Assembly (NCBI RefSeq): GCF_963675165.1
Contig: NC_087385.1
Span: 2,852,501-2,916,500 of the forward strand
DNA: 64,000 bases
From: Halichondria panicea
Taxonomy: Eukaryota > Porifera > Demospongiae > Suberitida > Halichondriidae
Reading direction: 5' to 3'
Shown here piece by piece: positions 2,290-29,895 of this stretch. Each line of letters starts with the position of its first letter. Position 1 is the stretch's first letter. Position numbers and translations under genes: made by a program. A model generated the notes under the pieces. It made no database searches and was not told where the DNA came from. It was given only the letters and a program-made list of their open reading frames with translations.

Positions 2290-2571
2290 GTCATGTACCG
2301 GTTAGTGTACTAACCGTAATTATTACTTGCATTTAACATAGAAATCTACAGCCAAGAACAGTCTAGAGTTGTAATTCCCTCTGATAATTATGTCAATATT
2401 CATTGCTATGCTAGCATAGCATAATTATCTGATTCTGGTGTGACATATAATTATATGAGGCAGGACATGTGCATGGAACGTTTTGGAACCAGCTGAGTCA
2501 ATACTAAATAAATGGTTATTTTGTCATAGATTGCTAAGTACCACTCAGCTGAGTCAGCTACCAGAAAATCT

Positions 2572-2886
2572 ATGGAAGATTCAAGTAGTGACACAACTAG
2601 ATCTACGATCAACTACTTCGATAACCAGAAGACGTATACACTTATGTCAACGTACGATCGCACATTTCACATCAAAGAAGGTTACTGCATGAAGTTAAAG
2701 AGAGATGATATGGAGCACACGCAAAGATTGAACGTTCACGCTGAAGAAGTGAATAAAGATGTCCCAATCGTGACATCATCGGAGTACGGTCACAGACCTC
2801 CATTGGAACATCCACACAGGAAGCATGTACGAATTGGACTGGTACAGAGAGAGTTTTATAGATCCTGTGGAACTAATATTTTATGA
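2572..2886 (+). CDS. CFAP90: CFAP90-like (C5orf49-like) ciliary protein
   Basis: A 104-aa reading frame starts MEDSSSDTTRSTINYFDN and ends CGTNIL. Diagnostic stretches are STYDRTFHIKEGY, KLKRDDMEH, NVHAEEVNK, SSEYGHR and HVRIGLVQREFYR. This order (SYFD, Y/FDRTFH..GY, RDD.EH, AEE, SSxYGxR, HVR......FYR) is what I know from the small axonemal protein family CFAP90. The length fits the family, which is short. The ATG is preceded 12 bp upstream by a CAG acceptor-like site, so a 5' non-coding exon is possible. The protein is expected at the axoneme of motile cilia. The identification is from motif memory and was not searched. Nothing in the neighbourhood conflicts, as the flanks are repeats. Confidence 0.6.
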   Translation: MEDSSSDTTRSTINYFDNQKTYTLMSTYDRTFHIKEGYCMKLKRDDMEHTQRLNVHAEEVNKDVPIVTSSEYGHRPPLEHPHRKHVRIGLVQREFYRSCGTNIL

Positions 2887-4934: not shown

Positions 4935-5023
4935 GAATTGCTCCGATACCACTCGTACGTGTCCTTCCTAAGCCAAGAAAGACACAAGGCTTAGGAAGGA
5001 CACGAGTGGTATCCGAGCAATTC
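4935..5023. repeat. Near-perfect hairpin
   Basis: Two arms of about 36 bp (start GAATTGCTCCGATACCACTC) are separated by a 13-bp loop, with only a few mismatches. It would form a stable cruciform or RNA hairpin. It is probably a minimal foldback element. No duplication outside the arms was recognised. Confidence 0.6.
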
Positions 5024-5235
5024 CGACATGGTGCCAGCCAGTATACATGATGTACGAGATTCTATTGTTTCTTGATGCACTGGAAACACACATTCATTGA
5101 CACGCCATCTGAAGGTCTACCAGGCACATCCAATGCGGTATAGCCTCTCTGGACGCTCTTGTTTGAGATCATTGCTTCTAAACATTTGACTGTTTTTTTT
5201 TATGGCCGCAATATACTGCATAACTCGGATATGAC

Positions 5236-5496
5236 TAGCCTTATCCCAGGCCGATGGCGATTTTAGTGACAACTAGCCTCGATCCCAGACCGAGTTTTCG
5301 ATTTTTATAACGGTTAGGCGAACAACTAGGCCTGGTACTAGTTGTATGCGCATGCGTCAGATTCTGACAAATGAATATTCTCGTTCACTTTCGTGACATT
5401 AATTTTATATTCTAGTTGTTCACCTAACCGTTATAAAAAGCGAAAACTCGGCTTGGGATCGAGGCTAAGTGACAACATGGTCTGGGGACGAGGCTA
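5236..5496. mobile_element. TAGCCT-ended MITE (outer copy of a nested pair)
   Basis: The ends read TAGCCTTATCCCAGGCC and, inverted, TAGCCTCGTCCCCAGACC. The interior is interrupted by a complete second element of the same family at 5274-5467. The 9-bp flanks of the outer copy do not match each other, so it is older or was shuffled. Confidence 0.5.
5274..5467. mobile_element. TAGCCTCGAT MITE with 9-bp target duplication (inner copy)
   Basis: A 194-bp element has inverted ends TAGCCTCGATCCCAG. AGTGACAAC lies directly outside both ends (5265-5273 and 5468-5476), a perfect 9-bp target duplication. The arms are nearly palindromic for about 60 bp each and enclose a GCGCATGCG core. A 9-bp duplication suggests mobilisation by a MULE-type transposase. 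Non-coding. Confidence 0.8.
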
Positions 5497-5689
5497 GGTA
5501 AAAGTAAAATTACAATGTACAGTTTCCAGTCCCACCCAGATACATGTATAATCAATACCAGGAGGGAGGAACCACTTAATTAACCTTAACTGATTAAGGC
5601 CACTATAAATTGGACTTTTGCCTATTTTTCTTCCTTCCTCGAATGTGACACGCTATACTTGTTGCCTCCAAACTTAATAACCGCGGGTG

Positions 5690-6195
5690 CTGATGCCTCG
5701 GTGGAGGTGCCAAAGCTACATAATGCTACTAATAGCTAGCTTTTATACACACATTGATCACAGGGAAACTCAAAGAGTGGGTAATGATCGACCATGATTG
5801 TTATTAAAAACGATCGATGCAAAAAGTTCAAGTCTAAAATTAATGGCTGCAAGTACGTCAGCAGAGCCTTGCAGCTCTCTTCTCACTCATGTAGTTACCA
5901 ATAGCTAGCGTTCTAGTGCAGAGCTAACTACTAAGTAGAGTAGCAACACTCGGTGAACAAGTTTTGCTACGGACTCTTCTGAAAAGGCTGCAATGGCATT
6001 CCAAGTAAGCAAAACTAGGCATAACTCGAGAATGAAGCTTTATTTTGCAAATCCACGAATATGAATCCAAGAAAACATGACTAGAAGCCTGTAGAAACTC
6101 TTACTTACACTTTATTGATCCTTGAACAGCTGTAACAGTCTACACACAGACACACTACCGTATACCTCGCTTGTGCATGCGCATTGAGGCATAAC
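5690..6195. repeat. Dispersed repeat with TGCCTCGGTG ends, copy 1
   Basis: About 500 bp, homologous in reverse complement to 59375-59940. Both ends start TGCCTCG, one followed by GTGGAGG and the other by GTGCGCATGCGC. Shared interior words include 'gttgctactctacttagtag' in reverse. This looks like a non-autonomous DNA transposon. A fragment recurs near 32035-32065. Confidence 0.55.
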
Positions 6196-6206
6196 AAGTC
6201 ATTCAA

Positions 6207-6271
6207 TAGCCTCGATTCGAGGAGGCGACCTAGCGTTCAATTAGAGACGGATCGGCCTGGGATCGAGGCTA
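6207..6271. mobile_element. 65-bp TAGCCTCGAT mini-element
   Basis: The whole element is 65 bp, starting TAGCCTCGATTCG and ending ATCGAGGCTA. The flanks are GTCATTCAA and TTCATTCAA, 8 of 9 identical, consistent with a 9-bp target duplication that has since mutated once. It belongs to the same family as 5274-5467. Confidence 0.65.
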
Positions 6272-6370
6272 TTCATTCAATTGAAAGATGACTACGGTTG
6301 CTCCGTATGGCACGCCAAGTGTAACAAAAATAAATAGCGCTATAGGACGTCATAAAGTAAGGGAAAACGT

Positions 6371-7122
6371 TAGCCTCGTTCCCAGGCCTTACTTTTTCTT
6401 GCTGTTGTCACTGTTCATCCATAAACAAGACATAGTGAGGCAGCAAGGAAAGAAATGGGCGTACAGTTAAGAAAAAGTAAGGCCTGGTTTGGGAAATCGC
6501 GTGATCCACAAGGATTTTTATGAACGTGGGCGATATGTAGCCCACAATCGTGACGTAAGGTATTCTCCCACGCATTCAGAGTAAGACTGTACTGTACTGC
6601 ACTGCACTGAGACAACCACCAAGCTGTGCTGCAAGTCAGATCAGAGAACCAGCGTGGCCAGCTCTGGTGGCAGTAGCTACCTGCTATATGATAATGATGA
6701 CTAAGCTATTCTACTATAGCATGTAGAAAGACACAATAGTGATAGAATCTAAACACACAATCTAGACTAGTAGATCATCTAGCTAAGCCTAAGGTATAGC
6801 TAGCTATAGTGCTTGCAAACTTCCAGTTCCAAGTCCATGTCCAGCTTGCTGCAGGCAAAGTTTTATTAGTCGTAGACCTCTGCGTGGGCAGTCCAACATC
6901 TCTAGCTCAGTATGCCCACGCTCATTTTCACCCTTCTACCACCCTTCTACCCTCACGCGACTTCCCGATACAGGCTCTCCTTTTTCCTAACTTTACGTCT
7001 ATTTCTTTCTTTATTCCTCCAATTAATACCGTATTTTATCTCATTGAACGAATAATACAGTATTTTATCTTATTGAACGATTGTGATAAAGAACAGAAAA
7101 AGGAGAGCCTGTGTAGAGGCTA
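6371..7122. mobile_element. 752-bp TAGCCTCG element with 9-bp duplication, inside the left arm
   Basis: The start is TAGCCTCGTTCCCAGGCC, the end is AGAGGCTA, and GGAAAACGT lies on both sides (6362-6370, 7123-7131). The right arm of the palindrome has the uninterrupted site, so the insertion is directly visible. Sub-terminal segments recur internally in inverted orientation (AAAGTAAGGCCTGG near 6475 and CAGGCTCTCCTTTTT near 6972). Two copies of an ATTTTATCTYATTGAACGA motif occur at 7031-7080. Non-coding. Confidence 0.8.
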
Positions 7123-7139
7123 GGAAAACGTCATGCATG

Positions 7140-7200
7140 CAAGACGTGCTGTAATCGTTACAAGACGTGCTGTAACGTTACAAGACGTGCTGTAATCGAG
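7140..7200. promoter_or_regulatory. Three iterated 20-22 bp repeats upstream of integrase
   Basis: Three copies of ACAAGACGTGCTGTAA, with short ATCGTT or CGTT spacers, lie 20 bp before the integrase start and near the transposon end. The same trio is kept in the other arm (29896-29955). The position suggests transposase-binding iterons or a promoter element. This is inference from placement only. Confidence 0.4.
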
Positions 7201-7221
7201 TGCGAGGCTCAAGGTCAAAAG

Positions 7222-7907
7222 GTGACTGGGTGTTCATTAATTAAAATGGTTGATCAAAGAGCAGGAGCTGGAGATCGAGTGTGGGGATGGGAAACATTTC
7301 TCCAAGAAATGGAGACTTTCCTTACTACGGTAGATAGAGAAATCGATTATACTCAGTCTACTAGTTATGCCCAGTTCGTTATTGAGAGGTTTGAGGTTTG
7401 TATACATGCTCTATCTTCCCTTCGTGTACAAATTGAAGATGATGGCGATGATGAGACGATTGAAGTTTGCACGGCATTGAAGGAAATAATGGACAGTTGT
7501 GTGTTGCTCAAGACAATGTGGTACACTCGACTTGATGAGTTGGATGCACACACAGACGGAGGCTACCAAGTTCCCCAGGTTGCTAGGAGAGTAGGACGTG
7601 GCCGTCCCCAGCTATTTATTTGTCAAGACCAGTTGGAATACCTATGTAGTTTAAATTTCACTTGGACTGAGATTAGTAAACTATTGGGTGTCTCTCGAAT
7701 GACTATCTATAGAAGAAGAGGGGAGTTCGGCATTCTAGATGTTCATAGTGCTGCAAGAAGTATAAGTGACAGTGATCTACGTACAAAGCTCCAACAGGTG
7801 CGTCGAGAAATGCCAAATATGGGAGAGACACTGGTGATTGGGCGACTACGGTCATTGGGATATGCTGTCACTAGACAAAGGGTGCGTAATGCTATCCACG
7901 CAACCGA
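7222..7907 (+). pseudogene. IS3EU-like integrase, 5' half, cut by the MULE
   Basis: This is identical in meaning to residues 1-228 of the intact copy on the right arm. It holds the N-terminal helical region, an AT-hook-like GRGRP and a helix-turn-helix (TWTEISKLLGVSRMTIYRRR). The frame is interrupted inside the codons for 'NAIHATD' by the element at 7908-21559. The gene resumes at 21569. Reading past the junction gives a meaningless tail and a stop inside the MULE terminal repeat. Confidence 0.85.
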
Positions 7908-8013
7908 ACAAGTGGCTAAATGCAGTACGTTAGCCTGTGTAGAAAGGGTTAAAATGACCGTGAATCTCATTATAATTGCACCGTAGCTAGCCTAGGGGGC
8001 GGCTAATAATAAT
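7908..8013. repeat. Left terminal inverted repeat of the MULE
   Basis: 106 bp, matched without a mismatch by the reverse complement of 21454-21559. Beyond this both sides keep CGCAGTCCAGCGAGTC and then enter the 9-bp arrays. The perfect match implies youth or homogenisation. Confidence 0.9.
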
Positions 8014-8030
8014 TATAATGTGTCACGCAG

Positions 8031-9435
8031 TCCAGCGAGTCTGGAGAGTCTGGAGAGTCTTAAGAGACCTGCGAGTCTGGCGAGTCCTGAGAGTCCTGAG
8101 AGTCTGGAGAGTCTAGCGAGCCCCGAGAGTCTTGAGAGTCCTGAGAGTCTGGATGGAGTCTGGAGAGCCCTGAGAGCCCTGAGAGTCTAGCGAGTCCTGA
8201 GAGACTGGAGAGTTTGGAGAGTCTGGAGAGTCTAGCGAGCCCTGAGAGTCTGGAGAGTCCTGCGAGTCCTGAGAGTCTGGAGTGTCTGGAGAGTCTAGCG
8301 AGCCCTGAAAGTCTTGAGAGTCCTGAGAGTCTGGATGGAGTCTGGAGAGCCCTGAGAGTCTTGAGAGTCCTGAGAGTCTAGCGAGTCCTGAGAGACTGGA
8401 GAGTCTTGAGAGTCCTGAGAGTCTAGCGAGTCCTGAGAGACTGGAGAGTCTGGAGAGTCTGGAGAGTCTAGCGAGCCCTGAGAGTCTTGAGAGTCTGGAG
8501 AGTCTGGAGAGTCTGGAGTCTAGCGAGCCCTGAGAGTCTGGAGAGTCTAGCGAGTCCTGAGAGACTGGAAGAGTCTTGAGAGTCCTGAGAGTCTAGCGAG
8601 TCCTGAGAGACTGGAGAGTCTGGAGAGTCCTGAAAGTCTGGAGAGTCTAGCGAGCCCTGAGAGTCTTGAGAGTCTGGAGAGTCTGGAGAGTCTGGAGTCT
8701 AGCGAGCCCTGAGAGTCTGGAGAGTCTTGAGAGTCCTGAGAGTCTGGAGAGTGTAGCGAGCCCTGAGAGTCTTGAGAGTCCTGAGAGTCTAGCGAGTCCT
8801 GAGAGACTGGAGAGTCTTGAGAGTCCTGAAAGTCTAGCGAGTCACGAGAGTCTGGAGAGCCTGGAGAGTCTAGGGAGTCCGGAGAGTCTGACGAGTCCTG
8901 AGAGTCTGGCGAGTCCTAAGAGTCCTGAGAGTCTGGCGAGTCCTGAGAGTCTAGCGAGTCCTGAGAGTCTGGCGAGTCCGGAGAGTCCTGAGAGTCTGGC
9001 GAGTCCTGAGAGTCTGGAGTCTAGCGAGCCCTGAGAGTCTGGAGAGTCTTGAGAGTCCTGAGAGTCTAGCGAGTCCTGAGAGACTGGAGAGTCTGGAGAG
9101 TCCTGAGAGTCTGGAGAGTCCAGGGAGTCCTGAGAGTCCAGGGAGTCTTGAGAGTCCTGAGAGTCTGGAGAGTCTGGAGAGTCTAGCGAGTCCGGAGAGT
9201 CTGGCGAGTCCTGAGAGTCTGGCGAGTCCTAAGAGTCTGGCGAGTCCGGAGAGTCCGGAGAGTCTGGAGAATCCGGAGAGTCTGGAGAGTCTAGCGAGTC
9301 TGGAGAGTCTAGCGAGTCCGGAGAGTCCTGAGAGTCCGGAGAGTCTAGCGAGTCCTGAGAGTCCTGAGAGTCTGGTAAGTCCTAGATAATGATGAGAGTC
9401 CAGAGAGTTTAGCGTGTTCTGAAAGTCTAGAGTCT
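8031..9435. repeat. Left sub-terminal 9-bp repeat array
   Basis: About 1.4 kb of 9-mers, mainly GAGTCTGGA, GAGTCCTGA and GAGTCTAGC, with higher-order blocks (for example 'gagactggagagtc'). The long open frames it produces (SLESPES repeats) follow from the 9-bp period and are not taken as genes. The array is complementary to the one at 20276-21428, so the two ends can pair. Confidence 0.9.
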
Positions 9436-9569
9436 GCTATAGTGTTCTCTATAGAGTAGAGTACTATGAATTCTAATCATGATTGTATATCACAAGCACA
9501 TAATAATTTCATAATAAATGGTTTTGATCAGAAAAGATATATTATTATTTTTTTTCAGACATGTATTTA

Positions 9570-11218
9570 CTATGTACAAAGGTTACAGAGAAAAGAGTTT
9601 TCGTTTACAGGTCTCCCACACAAAGTGTGGAGCCACAGATTGCACTTCGAACATTGAGCCCAATGAACTCGATCAGATGTACCATATTGCCTGTCATCTT
9701 CTTTGTAGCAAACAACACATACATTAATGTCCACTTTAGACAGATTTTCTTTACAGTTAGCCATAGCAGCAACTGACAGTTTAGCAATCCCTGTATGTCG
9801 CGGCCTCTTGTTCTTTATTGACTGGAATCTGATTTGAGTTTCATTAAGCGCATTAGGTGAAGAACGGCTTTTGATTGGTAAGGTGGGATGCTCTTTCCTT
9901 GTTTCATATGCCTTAAGAACATTAATACCGCTTTTGATATGCTCAGTGACACTTCGAACTGCATCATTACTGTCAGAAGATGTGAGTAGAGTGTGCAACT
10001 GGTGCAAATGATCAAATGCACTTTTCTTCAGCATATCAATTTGACCTCCAGCATTGGAGAGGATGGTACTTAAGTGTGTAGGATCATTAATGAGGGAAAT
10101 AGCTTTTTGTCTCGATTCCTCAGTGCTTATTTCAGGAGAAATGTCTGAGCCTGATAAATCATCTATAGAATTAGAAATCTCTGACCTATCCGTTTTGTCT
10201 GAAGCTGTAGTTAAAGAATGACTTTCAGTGGCTGAGTCTGCATGCACTTGTTGCATTGTTCGTGGATTTGGCCAGAAAGCATGTAGCATGGATGTGTTTA
10301 CATATTGTAGTATGTACAACCGAGTCAACACATGAACAATTGTACATGTGGATGCATACATCACATGCTGCGCACCTCAGTTTGCAAGAGAAAGGACAGG
10401 ACTGATTCTCCAAATGAACAGTGTACATTCTTCCGGAGGTTGTCTGAGAACTTATCTTCCATTCTTTGTTTGAAATCGATTGGAGATGACAGCCTTCAGA
10501 AATCATCTTAGAACTTTCTTTGTGCCTTCGATTTATTTCATTAATACGATAAGTTGTTTTCCCTTTATGAACTTTTTGTACTTGTTCAAAGGCCTTATTA
10601 CGAGCAAGCTTCAAAAGAATATGTATAAGTTGATCAAGTCGTCGATTCTTCTTTCCTTCTAGATACACAATTTTCAGTACTCGATGAAAAGATTCCAAAT
10701 ACATGTTTGTGTTCACAAACTTGCCTATTCTGTAACAGGTTGCCCACTCTTCCACCCTTGGCGTGTAATTTCTTTGAAAGTAAGAGCAAAATTGTGGGTG
10801 ACAATTTGATAAATTTCTGCAACAAACTTCGGAATTTGTCAGGTTGCAGTTCTGTCAGTAAAGTTCTCAAATGGTGATATACGTCAATTCGATTTTCATT
10901 GAGAGGAATACGCTCCTTAAGAGCTTTTCTCCAAGCACGATCTACGTGCCAGGCACACAGCAGTTTTGTGGTGTTGATACTGCTGTACGCAGCTGTCCAA
11001 GCACTCCAGTACTGCGTCGCATCATCTGACATGAACACTTGTGTGGAAAGGGGACCAGTTCTTTTCCTCAATTCTAGGAAAAAATAGGCCAGCATACAAG
11101 TGTCTTCTCGTGTAGTTATAGCCCACGCAACTGGAATTCCTTCCCCAAAATCGTCAACTACCATAACAGTTACCAGCAGGTATTCGTAATAATTAGTTGA
11201 ATGGGTGGCATCTACACA
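9570..11218 (-). pseudogene. MULE transposase, catalytic and C-terminal part (frameshifted)
   Basis: The gene reads leftwards from CVDATHSTNYYEYLLVTVMV at the insertion junction. The MULE DDE domain follows: first Asp in CVDATH, then DDFGEGIPVAWAI, second Asp region FMSDDATQYWSAW and the CAWHVDRAW helix. A frame change near 10790 leads into VEEWATCYRIGKFVNTNMYLE, then a SWIM finger (YNCSCVDSVVHTTICKHIHA, 10280-10330). A second frame change near 10250 leads to a charged linker and a C4HC3 PHD finger (CVVCYKED...CSKCNLWLHTLC...CNLC) ending at the stop. The role would be DNA cleavage and joining at the element ends. The two frameshifts make this copy inactive unless they are assembly errors. Confidence 0.8.
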
Positions 11219-11417
11219 TAGATATGGCGTGATATGGGCACACGAATTATGTACGCACATAAATGCAACAGTAGCACGTTGCATGGGATCGCCATTACTG
11301 TGGCTGTATAATCAAGGATTCGAGGCTATCCATCCCACTAGCTAGTGCGGCCTGGTAATCGAGGTACTTAAGTAGCCTCGATTACTTAGAGTGTATGGAA
11401 TCAAGGCTAAGACTTAG

Positions 11418-11575
11418 CCTAAGTCCACGCATCAGAGGAGGTCCGACAGGCGACAGGCGCGGTGCAGCTCAAGTAATTAGCCCTTTGATTACTCTCAGCA
11501 AAAACATACGACGTGGACGGATAATTATTCAAAGGCTAATTGCCTGAGCTGCACCGCGCCTCCTCTGTCCACGCA
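11418..11575. repeat. Long hairpin beside the satellite
   Basis: The arms share GTCCACGCAT, AGAGGAGG, GGCGCGGTGCAGCTCA and AATTAGCC..TTTGA in inverted order around a loop near 11490-11530. It lies directly before the 8/9-bp array. It may be a foldback end or a transposon terminus. No duplication was recognised. Confidence 0.6.
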
Positions 11576-11589
11576 TGATCACTTGCATT

Positions 11590-12833
11590 GCATGCACCGT
11601 TGCATCTGTTGCATCTGTTGCACCGTTGCATCTGTTGCACCGTTGCATCTGTTGCACCGTTGCATCTGTTGCACCGTTGCATCTGTTGCACCGTTGCATC
11701 TGTTGCACTGTTGCATCTGTTGCATCTGTTGCACCGTTGCATCTGTTGCATCTGTTGCACCGTTGCATCTGTTGCACCGTTGCATCTGTTGCACCGTTGC
11801 ATCTGTTGCATCTGTTGCATCTGTTGCACCGTTGCATCTGTTGCATCTGTTGCATCTGTTGCACCGTTGCATCTGTTGCATCGTTGCATCTGTTGCACCG
11901 TTGCATCTGTTGCACCGTTGCATCTGTTGCATCTGTTGCACCGTTGCATCTGTTGCATCTGTTGCATCTGTTGCACCATTGCATCTGTTGCACCGTTGCA
12001 TCTGTTGCATCTGTTGCACCGTTGCATCTGTTGCATCTGTTGCACCGTTGCATCTGTTGCATCTGTTGCACCGTTGCATCTGTTGCACCGTTGCATCTGT
12101 TGCATCTGTTGCATCTGTTGCACCGTTGCATCTGTTGCATCTTTTCCACGGTTGCATCTGTTGCACCGTTGCACCTGTTGCACCGTTGCATCTGTTGCAT
12201 CTGTTGCATCTGTTGCACCGTTGCATCTGTTGCATCTGTTGCACCGTTGCATCTGTTGCATCTGTTGCATCTGTTGCACCGTTGCATCTGTTGCACCGTT
12301 GCATCTGTTGCACCGTTGCATCTGTTGCATCTGTTGCATCTGTTGCACCGTTGCATCTGTTGCACCGTTGCACCTGTTGCACCGTTGCATCTGTTGCACC
12401 GTTGCATCTGTTGCATCTGTTGCACCGTTGCATCTGTTGCATCTTTTCCACGGTTGCATCTGTTGCACCGTTGCACCTGTTGCACCGTTGCATCTGTTGC
12501 ATCTGTTGCACCGTTGCACCGTTGCATCTGTTGCATCTGTTGCATCTGTTGCATCTGTTGCACCATTGCATCTGTTGCATCTGTTGCATCTGTTGCACCG
12601 TTGCATCTGTTGCACCGTTGCATCTGTTGCATCTGTTGCACCGTTGCATCTGTTGCATCTGTTGCATCTGTTGCACCGCTGCATCTGTTGCATCGTTGCA
12701 TCTGTTGCACCGTTGCATCTGTTGCACCGTTGCATCTGTTGCATCTGTTGCACCGTTGCATCTGTTGCACCGTTGCATCTGTTGCATCTGTTGCATCTGT
12801 TGCACCGTTGCATCTGTTGCACCGTTGCATCTG
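11590..12833. repeat. Satellite of GTTGCATCT and GTTGCACC units
   Basis: About 1.24 kb built almost only from the 9-mer GTTGCATCT and the 8-mer GTTGCACC in variable order. The variants GTTGCATCTTTTCCACG occur twice, near 12140 and 12440, inside otherwise matching blocks, which points to a segmental duplication about 300 bp apart. There is no stop codon in any frame, so the reading frames of about 430 codons on both strands are by-products. Scattered TGCAAC words near 11255 and 15310 may be the seed. Confidence 0.9.
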
Positions 12834-12994
12834 GAAATCCAAGCAAATGTTTGCTCTGCTGTCATGAGGTTAAGTAGAGGGTTCAATTCTCGAACCTTGG
12901 AAGGATGGTAAGTTGTCTGACAGTCTGTTCGTACATGATTTTTAATGTGCAATTAATTCATGGCAGTCATCATTATTATTATATATATATATAG

Positions 12995-14823
12995 CCTCCT
13001 CTGAACTGAAACAAACTCCTGCATCCTCCTCTCAACAAATTCCTGCATCCTCCTCTCAACAAACTCCTGCACGTGAGGCTCACCAGAGCAGGAATGTGAG
13101 GCAAACAGCTGCAGTTACATTGAAGAAATAATTGTATTCTCCTGCCAAGTTGTGTAGGTCTCCCAAGAAGAAGCGATGCACGAGACCACACCTCTCACTT
13201 TCTTTGAATGGATCACCTTCAAGTTCTGAGGCAGAATTACACACCTCTCAACAGATCACCTCTCAACAGATCACACCAATTACATCGGACAATGATGAAG
13301 TTGAGTTTACTACACGGTCCGACGTTATTGAGCATTCCTCACTACTTAATCCTCAAAAGAAGAGAAAAGAGAGAGCTCTGCCGACACCAAGAGGAGTTTT
13401 TACTAGCACTCCAATTAACAAACATTCTGTGGCTGCTCTCAATCAATCAATTTCTCCAATCTGCCACAAGATTAAACCGAGAAAGCTACAAAAACATTTT
13501 GAGGGCAGTCGTCATGATGCAGATGAAAAGACCTCCATTTCATCCATTACTCAAAGGCCACATCAGGATCCCCCAATGCTTGAATTGCAGCAAAAAGTCT
13601 CCCCTGGTAAGTGAGATAGGTCGGCCGGGACCAGCTATAATTATGCATGCATCTATATAAATTATAGGTTTTCACGATTGTGCAAAATAACAGCAATAAT
13701 TTTTTAATGGAGGTTCCATTTTGTGGACGTTTTGTAGAATGTGTTTCGCGCTATACGGTATAGACTCTCGGCTCTTTGAATTACGGTCACCTCTCTATAT
13801 ATATAATTATACCTTTTGTTTCGCTAGGCACGAATTAATTGGCATGCATGCAGGCTGTTAAAGCAGCCACCTTGCTATTGCGGCCACTGCATGCGACACT
13901 GTCCCTATATTTTATAATTCTTATAATAATACATGTACATACATGCATACATTATGTACATTATATAGGGTGACCGGACTATAATAATTATAGTATGTCA
14001 ATGTTGAGCTCGAATGCATTATTATAAATTATGCATGCAGAACAACAGATCATAGCTATTGAAGTGGTTGACTCGGTCATCAAACTCAAGAAAATACCAG
14101 GTAACTTTTCCGGCATAGTCCATATAAATTATGTGAGGATGCATGCATGATTATACCACCAGCATGCATTAGTGCGTTTTGGTGCTGCTTTTTATGAGAG
14201 GTGCGTTTTAAAAAATAGGTGGTGCAATTTTTGGAGAGGTACATTTTTCAGAGAACGACATTTTGCACAGAGGTGCGTTTTTTAGAGAGGTGAATTTTGT
14301 AGAGAGACGTTTTGTACAGAGGTGCGTTTTTTAGAGAGGTGAATTTTGTAGAGAGATGCATTTTGTAGAGAGGCGCATTTTTCATAGAGCGTTTTTTCAG
14401 CCAACTCCACCCATCATGTGGTTTGGTCAAGACAGCAGCATCTAAAAAATGGTTTTTGCAAACGTACCTCTGCTTTCAAGCGTGAAAGTAAAAATCATGC
14501 ACACATGCATGCATGCACTGTCATGCACACAGTAATTTGTTTTCTCAACAGCAACATTTTATTCATGCACACGTCACCATGCCCATTAATATTTTGTACT
14601 ACTGCATATAATTATACAGAAGACGAGAAACACTGCCAGCAAAATTAATGTGGAGGGAAATTTACGAAGAAGGGAAAACGCATGTGGGTCGGGTGTGAGG
14701 CTGACTCATGCTGGCGATGGTATCACTACACCTGTGTAGGTTTGAAGGAGCTGCCTTTCGAGAGCTAAGTTTGGATATGTCCAAGCTGTCATCCACCAGC
14801 TGGAAAGTTATCCGTGATTAACT
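12995..14823 (+). pseudogene. PHD-finger protein pseudogene (3 exons)
   Basis: The exons are 12995-13606, 14041-14100 and 14620-14823, each with AG/GT borders and agreeing phases (phase 1 at both introns). Exon 1 encodes a Ser/Gln-rich repeat (PASSSQQ), a basic patch (CRSPKKKRC) and a disordered Ser/Pro/Lys region. Exon 2 gives QQIIAIEVVDSVIKLKKIP. Exon 3 encodes a PHD finger: paired Cys, WVGCEADSCWRWYHYTCVGL, then WICPSCH. One stop interrupts exon 1 after TLKK and two interrupt exon 3, one inside the finger. PHD fingers read histone tails, so the parent was probably nuclear. It could be a captured host gene or a transposon gene. Upstream exons were not found. Confidence 0.6.
14195..14395. 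repeat. Minisatellite with GAGAGGTG / ATTTTGTA units
   Basis: About ten imperfect copies of a 16-20 bp unit (for example AGAGAGGTGAATTTTGT) lie in the second intron of the PHD pseudogene. It has no clear function. Confidence 0.6.
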
Positions 14824-15185
14824 GAATAATGCCAAAACTAATTGTACGGTATATACTATTATTATCTATTTACCCAGTTATGGTCATAATTACATGCATA
14901 ATATGTTTGATTTGTGGCATTATAATTATTATAATCCGTTGTCACCATCGTTCAGCCGGTCACTCTTTATCTGCATGGTAAACATTCAGTATTACCGGCA
15001 GAGAACTCTGATACTGATACTGACATAGAGCACAGGATCCGATTCACATTTTAGTGGGATAGCTGGCCAGATTGACTTTCTATTATTAACTAGTCTAGAG
15101 CAAGGAATCTAGGTTAGTATTAAACTCCGAGCTGCTATATATAGCGCCTTTGCATACGGGTTGGATTTGCCTGCACAGTACAGTG

Positions 15186-15231
15186 TAGCCTCGATTCCAA
15201 GCCGTTGTTCAAGGGGCTGGAGTCGAGGCTA
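15186..15231. mobile_element. 46-bp hairpin element with perfect 9-bp duplication
   Basis: The whole element runs from TAGCCTCGATTCCAAGCC to GGAGTCGAGGCTA, only 46 bp. AGTACAGTG lies directly on both sides (15177-15185, 15232-15240). It is the smallest member of the TAGCCTCGAT family here, and nearly all of it is terminal repeat. Confidence 0.75.
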
Positions 15232-15382
15232 AGTACAGTGCAGTGTTGCTAGACTGGAAACCACGCCCATAGTATAAATCAGCCGCCCTTCCTTGGGCCT
15301 GGGGGCTGCAACAGGTGCAACACATGCAACAGTTGCATTTTTTGTTCTTAATATTCGATCTACCCAAATCAATCCACAAGTG

Positions 15383-16868
15383 TCTACACAAATTACATTT
15401 CCTCCAAAAGCTTTCATCATCTCGAGCTGAAACTGCAGGGGCGGATCCAGGGGTGATTTTGAGGGGCTGAAGCCCCCCCTTTTGAAAAAACTACCATGTG
15501 TTGTAGTCTGACTCTACAACAATTTTGCCACCAATTATGCATCTGTAGACTCACTTGAAATCACTTGAGAGATGCTAGACAACAGCTACTAGGAATATAA
15601 AGGATCTAGGGTAGCTAGCTGGACGTACCTAGCTAGCTAGCTAGCTGTACGTACGTACGTACATCTGATCAGTACAGTATCACCATAGTATTAAAAGTAA
15701 GTGCAGAGGTCACGTCAACGTATTCTACTCATTAATATGAAAGTTCAAAGGTCAAATCTTGCAAAAAATTCGCCTCTGGCGAGGTTGCCCTGGGCGGCTC
15801 CGCCGCCCTCGTACGGGGCTTCGCCCCTTTCCGCCCCTTTCTAGCTAGCCCCCCCCTTTTGTTTTTCCTGGATCCGCCCCTGAACTGGGTTTGAAGTGCC
15901 AACAAAAAATCGTTGTCTTTCACTCCTTCTCTTTCACTAGACACCCCTTGCGGTTTGAAAGCAATAACTGGACAAAATTCCATGCTTTTCAGCTCTTCGA
16001 CCCATGCAGCAACACTTGTGTAGTCGTTTGAGTGCTTTTGTACTCCATCCACATTGCACACTCTTTTGATATTCTGGATATCTTTTTTTGTGCTATGATG
16101 ACACCGTTTCAGGCCACCTTCATCGACACTGTCTCTAATGTCATCTAGAATTCGATCTATCGTCACCCCTTGCAACAGTTTGTTGAATACAGCTAGCTTG
16201 AAGTCCTTAGGGAGTCGTAAATGCATTACATCTTCTTCTGGAGTGTGGCCATAATGCGTGGAACAAAAGTTAACCAGCACATTTCCTCCTGTGTGCTGAC
16301 TTACAATTAGGTGAGCTGTACAGTAGACACCTAATTTTTCCGAGCCCTGCAACTTCGAATTTCTGAGGCCTTTTGTGGTTGATCTAGATTTTCCTGATCT
16401 GTTACAATAGTAGTACCAAGTACGTACTCCACAGCGGACACGGGATCCACACGGCTGCACATACTGTGTGCAGGTTCGAGTTTCTTCACCCTCCTTCCAT
16501 CTTAAAAACTCTGAAAAGCCAGAAAACTCATGTTTCTCTGTATAAACAGTTGTTTCGTGAGCTTGTGTTAGATGTTGGATTAACTCTTGTACGAAACGAA
16601 ATCTGTAAGAAAGAAACTAATAATAATGTGGAAGTTGCAGTTGCATGATCTGTGTAATCATGTGCCATTAAGTATTCAATCGATCTAACCTGGAGTCACA
16701 AGTAATACAGCAGATATATCCAATTTCTGATGTTTCTTGTGAAGAGATTTCTTGGGTCAGATCTAGACTCTTCCCTAGAGCCTTTTCTCTGTGTTGCCTT
16801 ACATGTCGAGCTAGACTACTGCTGTGTGCATAACTGCTTGAGCAAGACTTGCAAATATAGAGCGACAT
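15383..16868 (-). pseudogene. MULE transposase, N-terminal part
   Basis: Exon 1 (16868-16690) starts MSLYICKSCSSSYAHSSSLA, a C2H2 finger. A phase-2 intron (GTTAGA donor, TTACAG acceptor at 16603-16605) leads into exon 2 from 16602. The join completes a second finger, CCITCDSRF...HLTQAH. Next comes the conserved N-terminal MULE region (EFSGFSEFLRWKEGE; CNRSG; CSTHYGHTPEED; LLQGVTIDRILDDIRD), then DNDFLLALQTQF, where a hAT-like MITE (15436-15882) sits. Reading resumes QLEMMKAFGGNVICVD up to the 4.16-kb insertion. Without both insertions the frame is open straight into the catalytic domain at 11218. The gene shares a 212-bp divergent promoter region with the ATPase gene. Confidence 0.8.
15436..15882. 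mobile_element. hAT-like MITE with 5-bp duplication
   Basis: Inverted ends CAGGGGCGGATCCAGG, with AACTG outside both ends (15431-15435, 15883-15887). Removing the element and one AACTG restores the transposase frame LQTQFQLEMMK, so the insertion is proven by the host gene. The CAGGGGCGGATCC start is widespread in animal hAT non-autonomous elements. A 5-bp duplication is shorter than the usual 8 but is known for some hAT groups. A solitary end of the same kind lies near 42000. Confidence 0.8.
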
Positions 16869-17080
16869 TGAGCCAAATCCAGAATATTATACACAGAGCA
16901 AACTATGATTTTGTTGAGACTTCTCCCGCTTGTTCAGGCTATTATAGACTGTAATTATGTACAGCACATGCGCGTAATCATCAATTAAGTATTAATTTCG
17001 CTGCGAGTACCTAATTGTTGTTCCAAAGAAGAACCAGTTCGAAGAACAAGCTCATCATTGTATCATTGTGCCATATAACC
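16869..17080. promoter_or_regulatory. Bidirectional promoter region of the MULE
   Basis: Only 212 bp separate the start of the transposase (-) from the start of the ATPase gene (+). It holds AT-rich stretches and one CATGCGCG word resembling half of an NRF-1 site (near 16969). No TATA box is clear. Shared control of the two genes is inferred from the layout. Confidence 0.45.
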
Positions 17081-20000
17081 ATGTGTGCATCACGAGAGAC
17101 TGATGGAGACAGCAGTAGTACTTTCGGGGATTCTAATTCCACAAGCTCACAGGTGAGCATGCAGAGCTCACATTTCATTGCACATATTAATTGTTGAAGC
17201 CACATGCAGTTTGAGAAAATTCAGTTTAATTATTGTGCTGCATGTATATTCTTTCAGGATTCTGGAAAGGGAGAATTTTTTATTAATTGGGAACTCGGAA
17301 CTGCTGGGAAATCAGCAAAAGGAGAAGATAAGGCCATGTGTGATTTTGCAATCAGGCTGAAGACACTAGTGGAAGCGAGAGAATTGACTGGGTTTTACTG
17401 TGAAGTGAAACGCGAAATGGATGGTGTTAGCAGGTACATCTAACCCTCCCTCTAACTATATACAGTTAATTACAGCACATGTGACACACCTTGTAGCTTG
17501 TTAAGTGCATGGGTGTGCAATACCTCAATCTGTATAATATACTGCATACATCTTGTATGTATACATACTTTATCTTTGAGGGATTTGTATAATTATAGCT
17601 GGTCAACTGCATGGGTATTTCCATTTTCCATTATAGTGCAATAAAAATTATTAAAACATACTTTCCACTGACTTATAGCTCAGCCATGTGCCTATAAATG
17701 ATATTAAAAATGTAGAGTTTGGAACCCACAAATAAGTATAGTTGTGGTTCCAACAATAGGCTGAAGTTGTGACTGTGGGATATCTGATATCACCAGAGCA
17801 TAGTTTTCTCACATCATTTTTCTACTGTCATGTGTGCAGAAAAATATTATTGTTTTAGAGCACATGCAGGACGTGCTACCAATGCAATATGCTACTAAAC
17901 TGATCATTTGTTTCAAACATGCAGGAGATGTTTCTTCACAAGTGACTCTGCAAACCAGAAAGTAAAGTTCATCAGCCAGCTGAACAAGTCTTTTGGGAGC
18001 GGTGGTGGATTCACTTGTGCTTTTTCAGACTCCGAACTCACCAGATTTCTCCAGTTTCTCAAACGAGAGCATGCTTCGGATATTAAGATCTCCAAGGGAA
18101 CCACCGTTATAGGATGCCAGCCTGGTAGCGATGTATGGGTGTTTGGTGATGACATCCATATCAAGTCTAACGGAGAGTGCATATCTGCAACGGAAAGTCC
18201 CTATGTGTGGTCACCCAATTGCATAATGGCACAGTGTGACAAAGTCAGCTTCAATGAGCTTGTGCCGAAACTTTCCATCCAAAGCAGCTCAATGGAACCT
18301 TTGAAGGATCTCCTCGACGGCCTACAGATAGCCACCAAGCACAATTATCCGCGTGCTCTCCTTGTTCTTGGTGGAACCATAATGTCTTGTCACTACACCC
18401 ACATTGCTGCGAAGTATGGAGGATTTCCAATTGTGCTTGCTGTCGGACCAACTGAGACTGGCAAGTCAACTGCTCTAAAGGCTGCCCTGAGTATTTTTGG
18501 GATGGCCAAAGATGCCTTTTACGTTGAAGGTTCCAATGCTTATTTTATGGAAAGAAGTGCCCTCTCGTGTATGCCATATGGTATTGATGAGGCCACTGCA
18601 CACAGCAAGCAGTTGGATGTTGTCAAGCTCATTGTCGACCTTCATGGAGCGGCTAAAACAGCCAATTTGCGTCGTGGTGCGTTTCTTCCACTGTCTGTAC
18701 CTGTCATAGCAACCAATGACAAATTGAAGGATGATCCAAGGTGTGTACATAATTAGAATGTTATACACCACAATTTTCATATAATTATATACAGCTATTT
18801 ATACCTGCACTTTAAACTTTAATCACAGAGTGAAGAGCAGATGTGTGGAAATTTCCTTCCGAAGGCCAAAAGTTGGTCCCTCTACCGTTGAGGAAAGAAA
18901 GTCGAGACGTGACTTAGAGAGTTCAATCATTAACGGAACGCCTTCTGGCATTCTTCACTGGGTGATTTCTCTAAGACAAGACCTCGAAAAAGATGGAGAG
19001 GCAGAGGTGGAGAGGATTTTGCAGCAGATCCTTCAGCTGCCTCAGTTTAGTGAACAACCCAGACTAGCGCAAAGCTGGGCTCTTATTCTTTACTTTACAT
19101 TCAAGGTAAGTTTATTAATTAGTGCGCATTTGTTGATTGTTATTGAACCATACATGAAATCAAGATGGTACGCGCCTGTGGGAAGGATGAGCTGGAGAAT
19201 GAAATAATGGCGTGTGTAACTCTAAATAGCACTGCAACTGAGGAAGGTACTGACAAAACTAGTTCTCTTGAAAGTGTTGTGACTGACACAGTCAGGGAAG
19301 TGCTTGAGTACTGCAATGGAAAAGTCATAAGACAGGTAATAATACTGTTAGTAATTGAGTGTGCTGTGGTGATACCTAATTCCACTTGCATGGTTTCTGT
19401 TTACTTAATTAAAGGTGTTTCTAACCACTCATATTGGTGCTCTGAATGGCTTGCACTCTTACATAATAATATGCATACACTGTAACATACATATATATAT
19501 ACAGGTACTCACCTTTGTCAGAACAAGGTTGATGGTAAGCAACCAAGAAGTTGTGGCAATCCATCTTTCTCACAACGGGCTGAAATTTACTCATTCCCTT
19601 GATGAAATTAGAAATGCTGTCGACCAACTTGAGTGGGGGAAAGGCACGGACAGCAAAGACTTCCTGAATCCTACCAAACATAGTGGGACGTTAATAAATA
19701 GGAAAACAAGTGATCGCGTAAGAGCTGCCAACATCTTTCTTAACAAACTTCCTAAAAATCTTCACGATGTACTTAGAAGGGGTTAGTTTGTCTTTACCTA
19801 TTTTGTTTATAGTATCAGTGTCACAGAATAAACATTGTGTACACACGCAGTGACCGACCCTGAGACTCCATTGGCTGAAGTAATTAAGTGTGGGCTGGAA
19901 GTGGCTGAAAAAACTCCATGCAGTGAGGAAGAGGAAAACAGTGGGCCAGGCTTAACTACTGAAACAGAAGCTGTCGATGGGGACAAGAAACATGCTACTG

Positions 20001-20140
20001 TAACAACATCACTGACTGAAACAGACGGTACATCTACTGATGGATCTGTCGATGATGGGGACAAGAAACGTGCTACAAGATCCTCGACTATTGTGCCTCC
20101 TTTTTCCAAAAGACTTTGCAAGGGGAACAATATTTACTAA
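17081..20140 (+). CDS. P-loop ATPase carried by the MULE (DUF927/helicase-like), 7 exons
   Basis: The exons are 17081-17152, 17258-17433, 17925-18740, 18829-19105, 19165-19335, 19505-19781 and 19851-20140. All have GT-AG borders and all phases agree, giving 692 aa. Exon 1 is Ser-rich. Walker A GPTETGKST lies at about residues 257-265 and a Walker B-like YGIDEA at about 302-306. VPVIATNDKLKDDPR follows, resembling a sensor-type segment. The order N-terminal beta-rich region, ATPase, alpha-helical domain with a possible winged helix (LTFVRTRLMV..QEVVAIHL), acidic tail with repeated DGDKK, is reminiscent of the bacterial DUF927 ATPase/helicase group. That assignment is by eye. A role in transposition (DNA unwinding or target handling) is inferred only from carriage. 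There is no internal stop, although the neighbouring transposase is broken. Confidence 0.75.
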
Positions 20141-20275
20141 CAATACTGGTTGAATATTATTCAGTGCGCTAAATTATATATAAGTGCACGAAATGTGTTG
20201 TTTTGTTATAATCAATCTGTTGTCGTTACGTTCTACCATGCATGCATTGAATTGACAAATTTAATTATAAGACTA

Positions 20276-21428
20276 ACTCGACTCAGCAGACTCGCTAGAC
20301 TCTCCAGACTCTCCAGACTCTCCGGACTCTCCGGACTCTCCAGACTCTCCGGACTCTCCAGACTCTCCAGACTCTCAGGACTCTCCAGACTCTCCGGACT
20401 CACTAGACTCTCCAGACTCTCAGGACTCTCGGGACTCTCGGGACTCTCAGGACTCTCAGGACTCGCTAGACTCTCCGGACTATAGCTAGACTCTCCAGAC
20501 TCTCCAGACTCGCAGGACTCTCCAGACTCTCTAGACTCGCAGGACTCTCAGGACACTCAGGGCTCTCCGGACTCTCAGGACTCCCAGACTCTCAGGACTC
20601 TCAGGACTTGCCAGACTCTCAGGACTCTCCAGACTCGCAGGACTCTCAGGACTCGCCAGACTCTCCAGACTCCCAGGGCTCTCCAGACTCGCCAGACTCT
20701 CAGGACTTTCCAGACTCGCAGGACTCTCCAGACTCTCAGGACTCTCAGGGCTCTCCAGACTCTCCGGACTCTCCGGACTCGCCAGACTCTTCAGACTCCC
20801 AGGGCTCTCCAGACTCTCAGGACTCTCAAGACTCTCCAGACTCTCAGGACTCGCTAGACTCTCCAGACTCTCGGGACTCTCAGGACTCTCAGGACTCGCT
20901 AGACTCTCCGGACTATAGCTAGACTCGCAGGACTCTCCAGACTCGCAGGACTCTCAGGACACTCAGGGCTCTCCGGACTCTCAGGACTCCCAGACTCTCA
21001 GGACTCTCAGGACTTGCCAGACTCTCAGGACTCTCCAGACTCGCAGGACTCTAAGGACTCGCCAGACTCTCCAGACTCCCAGGGCTCTCCAGACTCGCCA
21101 GACTCTCAGGACTTGCCAGACTCGCAGGACTCTCAGGGCTCTCAGGACTCTCAGGGCTCTCCAGACTCTCCGGACTCGCCAGACTCTCCAGACTCCCAGG
21201 GCTCTCCAGACTCTCAGGAATCTCCAGACTCTCCAGACTCTCAGGACTCGCTAGACTCTCCAGACTCTCAGGACTCGCCAGACTCTCAGGACTCTCCGGA
21301 CTCTCCAGACTCCCAGGACTCTCAGGGCTCTCCGGACTCTCCAGATTCTCCAGACTCGCAGGACTCGCAGGACTCTCCAGACTCCCAGGACTCCTCAGGG
21401 CTCCTCAGGGCCAGGACTCGCTGGACTG
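20276..21428. repeat. Right sub-terminal 9-bp repeat array
   Basis: About 1.15 kb of ACTCTCCAG, ACTCTCAGG, ACTCTCCGG and ACTCGCCAG units, the complement of the left array. A block of roughly 400 bp (20500-20920) is repeated at 20920-21330. Open frames reading DSPDSQ repeats are by-products of the 9-bp period. Confidence 0.9.
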
Positions 21429-21453
21429 CGCGACACAGCGTATTCGTGATAAT

Positions 21454-21559
21454 ATTATTATTAGCCGCCCCCTAGGCTAGCTACGGTGCAATTATAATGA
21501 GATTCACGGTCATTTTAACCCTTTCTACACAGGCTAACGTACTGCATTTAGCCACTTGT
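21454..21559. repeat. Right terminal inverted repeat of the MULE
   Basis: A perfect 106-bp inverted match to 7908-8013, ending GCCACTTGT directly before the duplicated CGCAACCGA. Confidence 0.9.
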
Positions 21560-21568
21560 CGCAACCGA

Positions 21569-22602
21569 TCCCCTGAATGCAGCTCTGAGATGGAGAGGAA
21601 TCCTCACTGCTCGGCGCCCTTACTCTGTTCCCTCGCCCAACTCTCTATGGCACATGGGTAAGTCATATATAGGTGTTGTGTGACCAGGTTTATGGTTAAT
21701 GTGTGTCAATTAAGTTTTAGATAAAGGAGCCCAGATGTGTGTACATGCATGTATATAGGTTGGAGCCTTATTATTATAGTAGTAGCAAGACTTGTGTATA
21801 CAATACATGCATACTAATCATATCTTGTATTCGTACAGATGGCCACCACAAGCTTGTGAGATGGGGCATGGTAACGCACGGGGCTATTGACGGATATAGC
21901 AGACTCGTCGTGTTTCTTCGCTGTAGCAATAATAACACTGCCGAAACAGTTTATAATCTCTTCCTTTCAGCTGTCCAACGGTTTGGACTACCGTCAAGAA
22001 TGCGATCTGACTACGGTGGTGAAAATTATCGTGTAGCAGCACATATGCTAGAGAGTAGAGGATATGACCGCAACAGCATGATAACTGGCAGTTCCGTGCA
22101 CAACCAGCGGATTGAGCGCCTCTGGCGCGATATGCATCGTTGCGTAACAGTGATATTTTACAAGTTATTCTATTACCTAGAGCAACATGGTTACTTGGAT
22201 CCTGATAACATGTTTCATCGGTATTGTTTACAGTACGTCTATCTTCCACGTATCAACCAGTCACTGAAAGTATTTATGGAGGGTTGGAACTGTCATGGGG
22301 TTCGAACGGAACACAATCTAACACCACATCAATTATTTGTGCGGGGAGCACTTTAAATGCAGAGAAGAGGACTTCAAGCCCTAGACTTTTTCGAACATAT
22401 TGATGAAATGTATGGTGTAGACGAAGAAATCAGTACGGGTGATGACGATTACACAGTTCGTATACCCCCAATTGGTCTTGCATTGTCTGATGAGAATATG
22501 GCTTTGTTGAAGGAAAGAGTAAATCCTCTGGCAGACAGCGATAATTTTGGGATAGAACTGTATGTTGAAACACTTACTTTTTTACGTACTTTGATTAACT
22601 GA
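21569..22602 (+). pseudogene. IS3EU-like integrase, 3' half (left arm, nonsense mutation)
   Basis: The gene continues as DPLNAALRWRGILTARRPYS, with a donor after 21657 (CATGG|GTAAGT) and an acceptor before 21839. Exon 2 holds DGHHKLVRWGMVTHGAIDGY, MRSDYGGEN and HNQRIERLWRD, the three catalytic acidic positions. The codon at 22354-22356 is TAA where the right-arm copy has CAA, which removes the last 81 residues. Together with the MULE insertion this copy cannot make full-length protein. Confidence 0.85.
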
Positions 22603-22672
22603 GATTTGTTAATGAATGTGCAGTGCGTAATGCCAGTAATAATTACAAATTTATATCCAAGTTGAATGATGG

Positions 22673-22824
22673 TACAGTGCATGGAACCCCTCTATAACGG
22701 ACACCTTTAATTGGAGAACAAAAAGTTTTGGCCGTTGTTAAGGGGTTGTTTTGTATGCAAACTTTTGGGACCTGGGTGTCTGGCCGTTATGTCGCAGTTG
22801 GCCGTTAAGAGGGGTTCCACTGTA
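22673..22824. mobile_element. Mariner-type MITE (TACAGTG...CACTGTA), left arm
   Basis: The ends are TACAGTG and GGTTCCACTGTA, with the interior word CTATAACGG / CCGTTA. The same insertion sits at the matching place in the right arm (27931-28082), so it predates the arm duplication. Confidence 0.65.
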
Positions 22825-23543
22825 TATAATTTTTATCATTTATGTTAATGAATGTCTGTCAGATGCAGGTACACATAATTATATAGACACACTATAAAGA
22901 GTATGACTAATATTATAGTAGTACTGCCAATACACAATGTTAGGACGTATATTATTATTATACTGGAATAGGTTGCAAGTACGTAGCCACTGTATATACA
23001 CTTGGTAGATATTGTCATATAGTTTTACAGATGCTGTTTATTAGTCTGAGTCAAATTTCTCATTGGCTTGTGGCACCGTCTTCAATTATACCTGAATCCG
23101 GATAGAAAAACATTTGCGATGTGAAAAATTGCTACAATCCTATGTACAACCTACTGATTCATATAGCATTTGAACGTGGAACATTTGTGGAACAATCATA
23201 ATTATTACATGCATGCTTGCAACATGATAATCATAAGCTCATGCAGATAACTATATAATTATATCTTCACTGTGACAAATGCAAGCACATGCATGTACTA
23301 CTTGCATGCATGTATAGAAGGTCTTGCTAATTTTGCATTCATAAGTTATAGGTGTTATATATAACAATTCTCCTGGGACCAAAGCTTGCATGCTTTTTAT
23401 TGGACCTATATACCTACATCACTCAGTAATACAAAAATCACAGCGATGAATGCTTTACAATACAATAACATCGTCATAAAGGTAATAATTATGGCCAAAA
23501 AACATTGACAGACATGCATGCAGTGTTATCAATATTGCAAACG

Positions 23544-23876
23544 TCAATAGCTGTCCATTCTCCACAAGTACTCGCTTGACAAACAAGCTCGGAACTCAGA
23601 AACAAACACTTGGTATGAAGGGTATGTTGAGGATAGAATCAGGGATGGTGCACAGGTGAGGGCAATGGGTCTACGTGAAGAACCGGTAAGAGCATTAAAT
23701 TCTAGAGATATTTTCGAAGAGGAACACACCGAGCTGCCAGTAACGAAGCGCAGAAAAGTTCGCAATTCATCCAGTCCCATATTTCCTATAAATTGACGCA
23801 GATAACCTAAAACCCTATTCACATGTATTTTACACATAGTTATGTGGAAGGTCTTGCTAATTTGATATGCTATCAT
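23544..23876 (-). CDS. HECT-like domain, C-terminal end (left arm, partial)
   Basis: The frame contains RVLGYLRQFIGNMGLDELRT, FLRFVTGSSVCSSSKISLEF, RRPIALTCAPSL and ends EFRACLSSEYLWRMDSY. The pattern LR.FLRFVTGSS, RRP.A.TC and a short C-terminal tail with SEFRACL resembles the C-lobe of HECT-type ubiquitin ligase domains seen in G2E3-like transposon proteins. The true catalytic Cys is probably the TC pair. It lies convergent to the integrase. The N-terminal part of the gene was not found in the centre of the palindrome, so it is partial or has exons I cannot recognise. Confidence 0.5.
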   Translation of the reverse strand: MIAYQISKTFHITMCKIHVNRVLGYLRQFIGNMGLDELRTFLRFVTGSSVCSSSKISLEFNALTGSSRRPIALTCAPSLILSSTYPSYQVFVSEFRACLSSEYLWRMDSY

Positions 23877-27139: not shown

Positions 27140-27149
27140 CGTTTGCAAT

Positions 27150-29872: not shown

Positions 29873-29895
29873 CTTTTGACCTTGAGCCTCGCACT

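Follow-up and report, generated by a model that had tools for sequence, protein, structure and literature searches.

A foldback-type MULE family with inverted arrays of 9-bp repeats and a putative ATPase gene in the sponge Halichondria panicea

Positions 7908-21559 of a 64,000-nucleotide stretch of the Halichondria panicea genome (RefSeq assembly GCF_963675165.1, contig NC_087385.1, positions 2,852,501 to 2,916,500, forward strand; hereafter the window) hold a transposon of 13,652 bp. A first-pass annotation of the window had taken it for a Mutator-like element (MULE) of foldback design, and this assignment is supported by a MULE domain (PF10551), target-site duplications (TSDs) of 8-9 bp, invariant catalytic residues and inverted arms made of repeat arrays. 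With moderate confidence, we read the family to which it belongs as a recently mobile, cut-and-paste MULE of ~9 kb, similar to the Rehavkus group, which carries two genes and whose arrays we infer to be docking stretches for an element-encoded protein. The interest of the family lies in a relative within the same genome, in which the design is retained and the repeat is a different one.

Ends, target site and copies of the element

The window element is bounded by terminal inverted repeats (TIRs) of 106 bp (7908-8013, plus strand; 21454-21559, minus strand) and flanked by an identical 9-mer, CGCAACCGA, at 7899-7907 and 21560-21568. Direct comparison of ends and flanks bore out both the terminal repeat and the 9-bp duplication, which had been described as perfect. 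The insertion splits one arm of a host inverted repeat, the pieces of which are 98-100% alike, and the empty site reported in the opposite arm was recovered: the joined 60-bp flanks were matched exactly at 29157-29216 on the minus strand, with a single copy of the 9-mer at 29187-29195. The host repeat itself measures ~3 kb (7123-7907 plus 21560-23780 versus 26903-29971, arms 98-100% alike, spacer 3.1 kb); its right arm carries an integrase-core gene (PF24764, E 5e-77), and its left arm has the same sequence, interrupted by the element.

A search for other copies, as the first-pass annotation had proposed, was run in the window's own genome (131,455,214 bases, 39 contigs). The 106-bp TIR gave 17 matches, 14 of which pair into seven full-length elements, the TIRs of which match the query at 97-100%: the window copy (13,652 bp), L001 (8792 bp), L002 (9242 bp), L003 (8833 bp), L004 (7633 bp), L005 (9038 bp) and L006 (8961 bp). 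Because the six further copies each carry both arrays, chance is excluded as the origin of the window structure. The three remaining matches comprise L007, where a lone, diverged end adjoins a short array, and both ends of L008 (1033-1099), a 67-bp remnant that consists of two TIR tips only and has an 8-bp duplication, GAAAATGA, on both sides. At L007 (~890-930), telomere-like GGGTTAGGGTTAGGG stands directly ahead of the short 9-bp array.

TSDs of 9 bp flank L003, L004, L005, L006 and the window copy, and one of 8 bp flanks L001; none was found at L002, so that six of the seven full copies have duplications within the 8-10 bp typical of MULEs. Interiors differ by 0.08-0.65% among copies, counted outside a nested 4.16-kb insertion of the window copy and over ~5 kb for L004, which has a deletion, and they fall into two groups (L001, L002, L003 and the window copy versus L004, L005 and L006). 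The idea that each copy holds unrelated cargo was rejected, as the same interior was found once the other strand was compared.

Among the seven full copies, an uninterrupted transposase frame of 809 amino acids occurs in L005 and L006 only. The claim that the element is complete with a coding interior thus holds for the family and fails for the window copy, whose frame is broken, in part by two nested insertions. Frame breaks near residues 397 and 592 are common to L001, L002, L003 and the window copy, which lie at different genomic sites, and the window copy and L002, again at different places, have the same miniature inverted-repeat transposable element (MITE) at the same point. Since these breaks and the MITE are shared at different sites, the broken copies seem to have moved, presumably by transposase supplied in trans, and the family looks recently active. 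L002 (element at ~376-9617) is probably a recombinant between copies: its transposase-side array shows just 4 mismatches against the L005 one and its TIRs have the two variants seen there, but its interior belongs to the other group and it has no TSD, a mixture of alleles that points to recombination or conversion.

Inverted 9-bp arrays

The array on the transposase side, arm A (8029-9383, plus strand), consists of ~150 units of GAGTC-Y-N-G-M, and the array on the ATPase side, arm B (20287-21393, minus strand), of the same 9-bp unit in inverted orientation. Tandem Repeats Finder (TRF) gave periods of 9/18/27/45 for the former and 9 for the latter, and the arrays comprise ~120-150 units each. 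The two are mutually inverted, and the element thus has the arms that define foldback structure, long, inverted and composed of short tandem repeats. The presence of inverted 9-bp arrays near the ends was therefore upheld; their lengths, given earlier as 1.2-1.4 kb, are ~1.35 and 1.11 kb.

Both arrays are present, beside both TIRs, in all seven full copies, and a comparison of array length among copies, also proposed earlier, placed 14 of 14 arms at 1.08-1.36 kb by TRF. An exact 25-mer of the array occurred 42 times in the genome, each time inside one of the seven full copies, and its reversed control not at all; the search was limited to exact matches, so that the diverged L007 array escaped it, as similar ones would. 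Because every full copy carries the arrays and all 42 exact matches lie inside these copies, the arrays belong to the element, as the first-pass annotation had held. No full copy lacked them, and the L008 remnant alone was found without arrays.

In a tiling model built with no motif anchor, GAGTC and G are constant and three positions vary, alike in both arms; a GAG-anchored profile, which is partly circular, agrees on these positions. In a common orientation (L001 and L006 flipped), identity between copies is 97.1-99.7% for arm A and 98.1-99.8% for arm B. This same-side identity of at least 97.1% led us to reject hypervariable arms, although some extra change stays in array length and in some copy pairs. 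Arm A against arm B gave 86-89% identity, by this measure no better than 25 unit-shuffled controls (mean 89.9%, 29% gaps), but its alignment scores of 1154-1327 exceed those of the controls (799 ± 61, maximum 941). These scores are far below those of same-side pairs (1883-2384), which indicates that the two arms are distinct inherited sequences that have not been homogenised with each other.

Two genes, nested insertions and related elements

The transposase gene lies on the minus strand, with an exon structure predicted from genomic sequence rather than transcripts. Exon 1 (16690-16868) would supply the start codon and first C2H2 finger, and a putative GT-AG intron (16689-16603) would split the second finger, as in a related element, C12. 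The 5' part of exon 2 (15883-16602) runs from the end of that finger onward and is followed by a piece between the nested insertions (15383-15435), which starts with the second TSD copy of the first insertion, and by the 3' part (9570-11218), where the frame is broken. This last part holds the catalytic D-D, C..H and E, a SWIM-type CxC..CxH and a C-terminal PHD-like C4HC3.

As the first-pass annotation had stated, a MULE transposase lies inside the element: PF10551 was matched at E 6.5e-12 on the minus-strand open reading frame (ORF) of the window and at E 2.6e-11 on the 809-residue protein of L005 (44.2 bits, cut-off 27.6). The C2H2, SWIM and PHD-like readings were made by eye with sub-threshold Pfam matches. 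C2H2 matches of the N-terminus fell just below the cut-off (E 9.5e-6 and 7.8e-5), and the C4HC3 spacing seen at the C-terminus corresponds to a Pfam PHD match below the cut-off on the window ORF (E 0.13), with no PHD among the matches listed for the 809-residue protein. FLYWCH, a Phantom/Muta trait, was absent from the listed matches with E ≤ 1 (for the N-terminus, 25 of 28 families listed). Across four aligned transposases, one from this family and three from the ten related loci, the others being broken, partial or not fetched, D261, D323-D324, C346, H349, E437 and the SWIM-type residues are invariant; we take the first five sites to be catalytic. The PHD-like end lies beyond the aligned frames of the three relatives, and translated matches to it occur in C12, C2 and C1a.

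The second gene, predicted to be transcribed divergently from the transposase gene, has a main exon at 17899-18735 on the plus strand that encodes a P-loop ATPase (GPTETGKST), followed by open frames read as further exons (18785-20140); within these, C12 yields a translated match to ~18827-19108 (placed by offset from L006), and the rest are candidate exons. The main-exon protein is identical in five of the seven copies and damaged in L001 and L004. DUF927 was matched weakly in 5 of 11 aligned ATPase sequences (best E 1.7e-4), and a phage primase/helicase family also gave a weak match (E 1.9e-4); NCBIfam matches were at chance level only, and a sequence comparison of the ATPase exon with solved structures gave no match at E ≤ 1. 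Helicases of bacterial mobile elements, those of staphylococci included, have been described as carrying DUF927 (PMC7581432, PMC10061031). From this weak similarity we describe the product as helicase-like and do not call it a helicase. No viral relatives of the transposase or the ATPase exon were found in scans of viral contigs, which reach close relatives only.

The first nested insertion (11219-15382; 4164 bp; 8-bp TSD TCTACACA) is not part of the MULE. It is a shortened relative of a longer, KDZ-like element, C13, and each of its ends has six matches at 99-100%, the window copy counted, together with a diverged match at C13. A third array, at 11599-12833, was rejected as part of the MULE: it lies in this insertion, whose ends recur elsewhere. 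The second insertion (15436-15882) is the MITE shared with L002, which has CAGGGGCGGATCCAGG inverted ends. The C13 element is flanked on both sides by CTGGCCAT, carries its own 0.9-kb array and encodes a PHD finger above the cut-off and a KDZ-type fragment (PF18758, E 3e-4, below the cut-off), the KDZ assignment resting on this single sub-threshold match. Its ATPase is 30% identical to that of the MULE family over 139 residues (E 1e-22 in a single comparison, 6.4e-17 in the genome search), and one ATPase type thus seems to be carried by two transposase superfamilies in the same genome. ATPase-like frames also occur at L025 and L026 (C1:16746500-16759500), where, by eye, an open frame is shared with the nested element; pairs of ATPase matches ~9 kb apart, as there, recur on C1.

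The C12 element (11,848 bp) is present as one full copy, with a partial match on C17 (1.4 kb, 92%), and carries transposase and ATPase in the same divergent order as the window family. Its TIR of 92 bp, with 4 mismatches, was found only at its own two ends, and its TSD is 9 bp (TTCTTTTTG). Its inverted arrays of 1.8 and 1.5 kb are built on a unit of 10/20 bp, unlike the 9-bp unit of the window family. At the degraded loci C10a and C15, the transposase end is bordered by repeats of a third kind; a second arm was looked for at both and not found, and C10a has an inverted stretch of the repeat 2.4 kb further on. The C2/C1 family has a related transposase, and the stretch fetched for it contains neither a long array nor an ATPase match. 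C2 and C1a have an inverted pair of 57-65 bp, for which no TSD could be fixed, and the 7-kb region shared by both extends beyond the pair.

Arrays of at least 400 bp and a period of up to 70 (TRF) were found at 5 of 10 ATPase-bearing loci (the window family, counted once, C12, C10b, C1:4675500 and C13), in a small, non-random sample drawn from those ATPase matches of the genome search that were fetched with flanks; C10a and C15, with repeats below the length and period limits, count as lacking an array. No long array was found at the four transposase loci without a recognised ATPase or in the 49.3 kb of the window outside the element. The shortest TRF periods at the five array loci are 8-10 bp; that of the nested copy in the window is 17, and a further array of C12 (446 bp) has a period of 24. 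ATPase loci L032 (1157-3178, 8/17-bp CATGGTTC) and L031 (2800-3423, 9/18-bp GTTCTCATG) lie near long arrays of other units; in the 9.9 kb fetched, neither a related transposase nor inverted ends were found.

Possible roles of the arrays and comparison with known systems

In the reading that we prefer, transposase from intact copies would act in trans on all copies, with the cutting site lying in the TIR, and the arrays of ~120-150 units would offer many short docking sites for the two-finger N-terminus of the transposase or for the ATPase. Docking of this kind would raise end recognition and synapsis of an unusually long element. Selection would keep the presence, orientation and short period of the arrays, the unit sequence would turn over with the protein that reads it, and the ATPase would be an accessory of the helicase or remodeller type used by large transposons. 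Docking is favoured by the retention of both arrays in every full copy, the unit profile common to the two arms, the recurrence in C12 of the divergent gene pair with inverted arrays of another unit, and the occurrence of arrays at half of the ten ATPase-bearing loci against none of the four transposase loci lacking a recognised ATPase. A precedent for docking is Galileo, in which tandem repeats in the TIR are described as bound by its transposase (PMC3688188).

Several observations weigh against this reading. The unit profile might reflect ancestral variation that slippage has copied, and conversion between copies, for which L002 gives evidence, could also have spread the shared MITE and frame breaks. 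The family matches of the ATPase are all weak, and its structure prediction has a mean pLDDT (predicted local distance difference test) of 40. No array passing the threshold was found at the ATPase loci C15, C10a, C1z, C1c and C17. Within the sequence fetched for the related transposase loci L011, L012, L013 and L033 there is no long array, so the wider lineage can do without them. The L008 remnant has an 8-bp TSD and no arrays, and arrays may therefore not be needed for insertion, unless the remnant was deleted in place.

A serious rival, possible and clearly less probable than docking, holds that the arrays are passive, growing and shrinking by slippage, unequal exchange or gap repair while being tolerated, with the foldback appearance as a by-product. 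The arrays of different copies do differ mainly by whole units, 225 of 275 gaps of at least 6 nt being multiples of 9, in copy pairs that are not independent and with an aligner that favours such multiples. The make-up of L002, whose arm A and TIR alleles resemble those of L005 while its interior is of the other group, indicates that arms are exchanged between copies, and for foldback elements a gradual expansion of the TIR has been put forward (PMC3169594). Passive growth fits less well with the narrow range of array length across the 14 arms and the retention of both arms, inverted, in every full copy. The same is true of the C12 arrays, built of another unit at the same two places, and of the recurrence of arrays at several ATPase loci.

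A doubtful but broader proposal is that array and helicase-type ATPase form a portable module, adopted separately by unrelated large DNA transposons (MULE and KDZ-like). The ATPase would load on an iteron-like array that keeps a period close to one helical turn (8-10 bp) but takes on a new sequence in each family, and would aid synapsis, target choice or replication of elements too long for the transposase alone. Slightly less likely still, the arrays could be iteron-like sites for replication or helicase loading by the element's own ATPase, the element being copied and not only cut and pasted. The matches to DUF927 and to phage primase/helicase point this way, as do the occurrence of DUF927 in initiator-type helicases of mobile elements (PMC7581432) and that of ATPase and array together in a MULE-type and a KDZ-like element. 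These matches are weak, however, and several cover little beyond the P-loop; the perfect TSDs and clean empty site fit ordinary cut-and-paste.

We consider it improbable that a host protein binds the arrays, whether exploited by the element or making use of it: a motif in Mutator TIRs is reported to mark chromatin loop anchors in placozoans (PMC12221973), but turnover of the unit between elements of one genome fits element-encoded readers better. That the arrays are host satellites in which the element landed is refuted, within the limit of exact matching, by the confinement of all 42 25-mers to the seven copies and by the position of the arrays between the TIRs in every full copy.

The function of long, repetitive foldback arms is the question that this young family addresses. 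With seven near-identical copies, two intact transposase frames and a relative that has another array beside the same genes, swap experiments become possible. The second gene, shared with an array-bearing KDZ-like element, hints at an accessory system across transposon superfamilies.

By traits, and compared by description only, the nearest described group is Rehavkus and not Drosophila FB/NOF, and membership in Rehavkus is plausible. The FB/NOF elements have long inverted arms of short tandem repeats, a 9-bp TSD and a MULE-related transposase; unlike them, the present family has a gene-sized interior in all seven full copies and two distinct arms in each. The first-pass annotation had pointed to FB/NOF as sharing the design, and in the published accounts at hand both Rehavkus and the Aedes MULEs come closer.

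Rehavkus, a Repbase group, is listed with a 9-bp TSD, a PHD finger, a minisatellite before the 3' TIR and one ORF, in Arthropoda and Annelida (PMC6446971). Our family shares the 9-bp TSD (five of seven copies, with 8 bp in one and none in another) and the minisatellite, here beside both TIRs in all seven copies; as to the PHD finger, a C4HC3 spacing is seen by eye and the Pfam match lies below the cut-off, and the family has the ATPase gene beyond the one ORF listed. Rehavkus-1_TC, of 9.5 kb, has tandem repeats in its inverted termini (PMC10218199), where the unit is given as 164 bp in mostly five and eight copies, as against 9 bp in ~120-150 units here.

The Aedes MULEs (PMC5225508) have subterminal tandem repeats of 9-15 bp, and Muta1 is called a type 2 foldback element; Muta1, however, has 9 repeats of 12 bp in a 145-bp TIR and is 3198 bp long, and a FLYWCH finger is described for 13 families, with none among the matches listed here. 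Tm1 of root-knot nematodes (PMC3169594) shares a 9-bp TSD, a Mutator-type transposase and TIRs with 1-9 units of a motif of mostly 14 bp, but is described with short repeat runs, mostly non-autonomous copies and a FLYWCH-type N-terminus. A second ORF is likewise listed for two-ORF MULEs, for example MULE-Co of Filozoa (group 6 in Table 1 of PMC6446971), where it is given as unknown; in this comparison by description, no arrays are listed for them.

In the portions of the literature consulted, which do not settle what is unpublished, we found no description of arrays of this size, of an ATPase gene in a MULE (that table's second, unknown ORFs noted) or of a change of array between relatives with the same genes. 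According to a 2013 paper, Foldback and Phantom repeats had not yet been tested for binding (PMC3688188). The same paper describes Galileo, of the P superfamily, which resembles the present family in its long TIRs and internal tandem repeats, with transposase binding sites demonstrated there, and differs in having a transposase of another superfamily.

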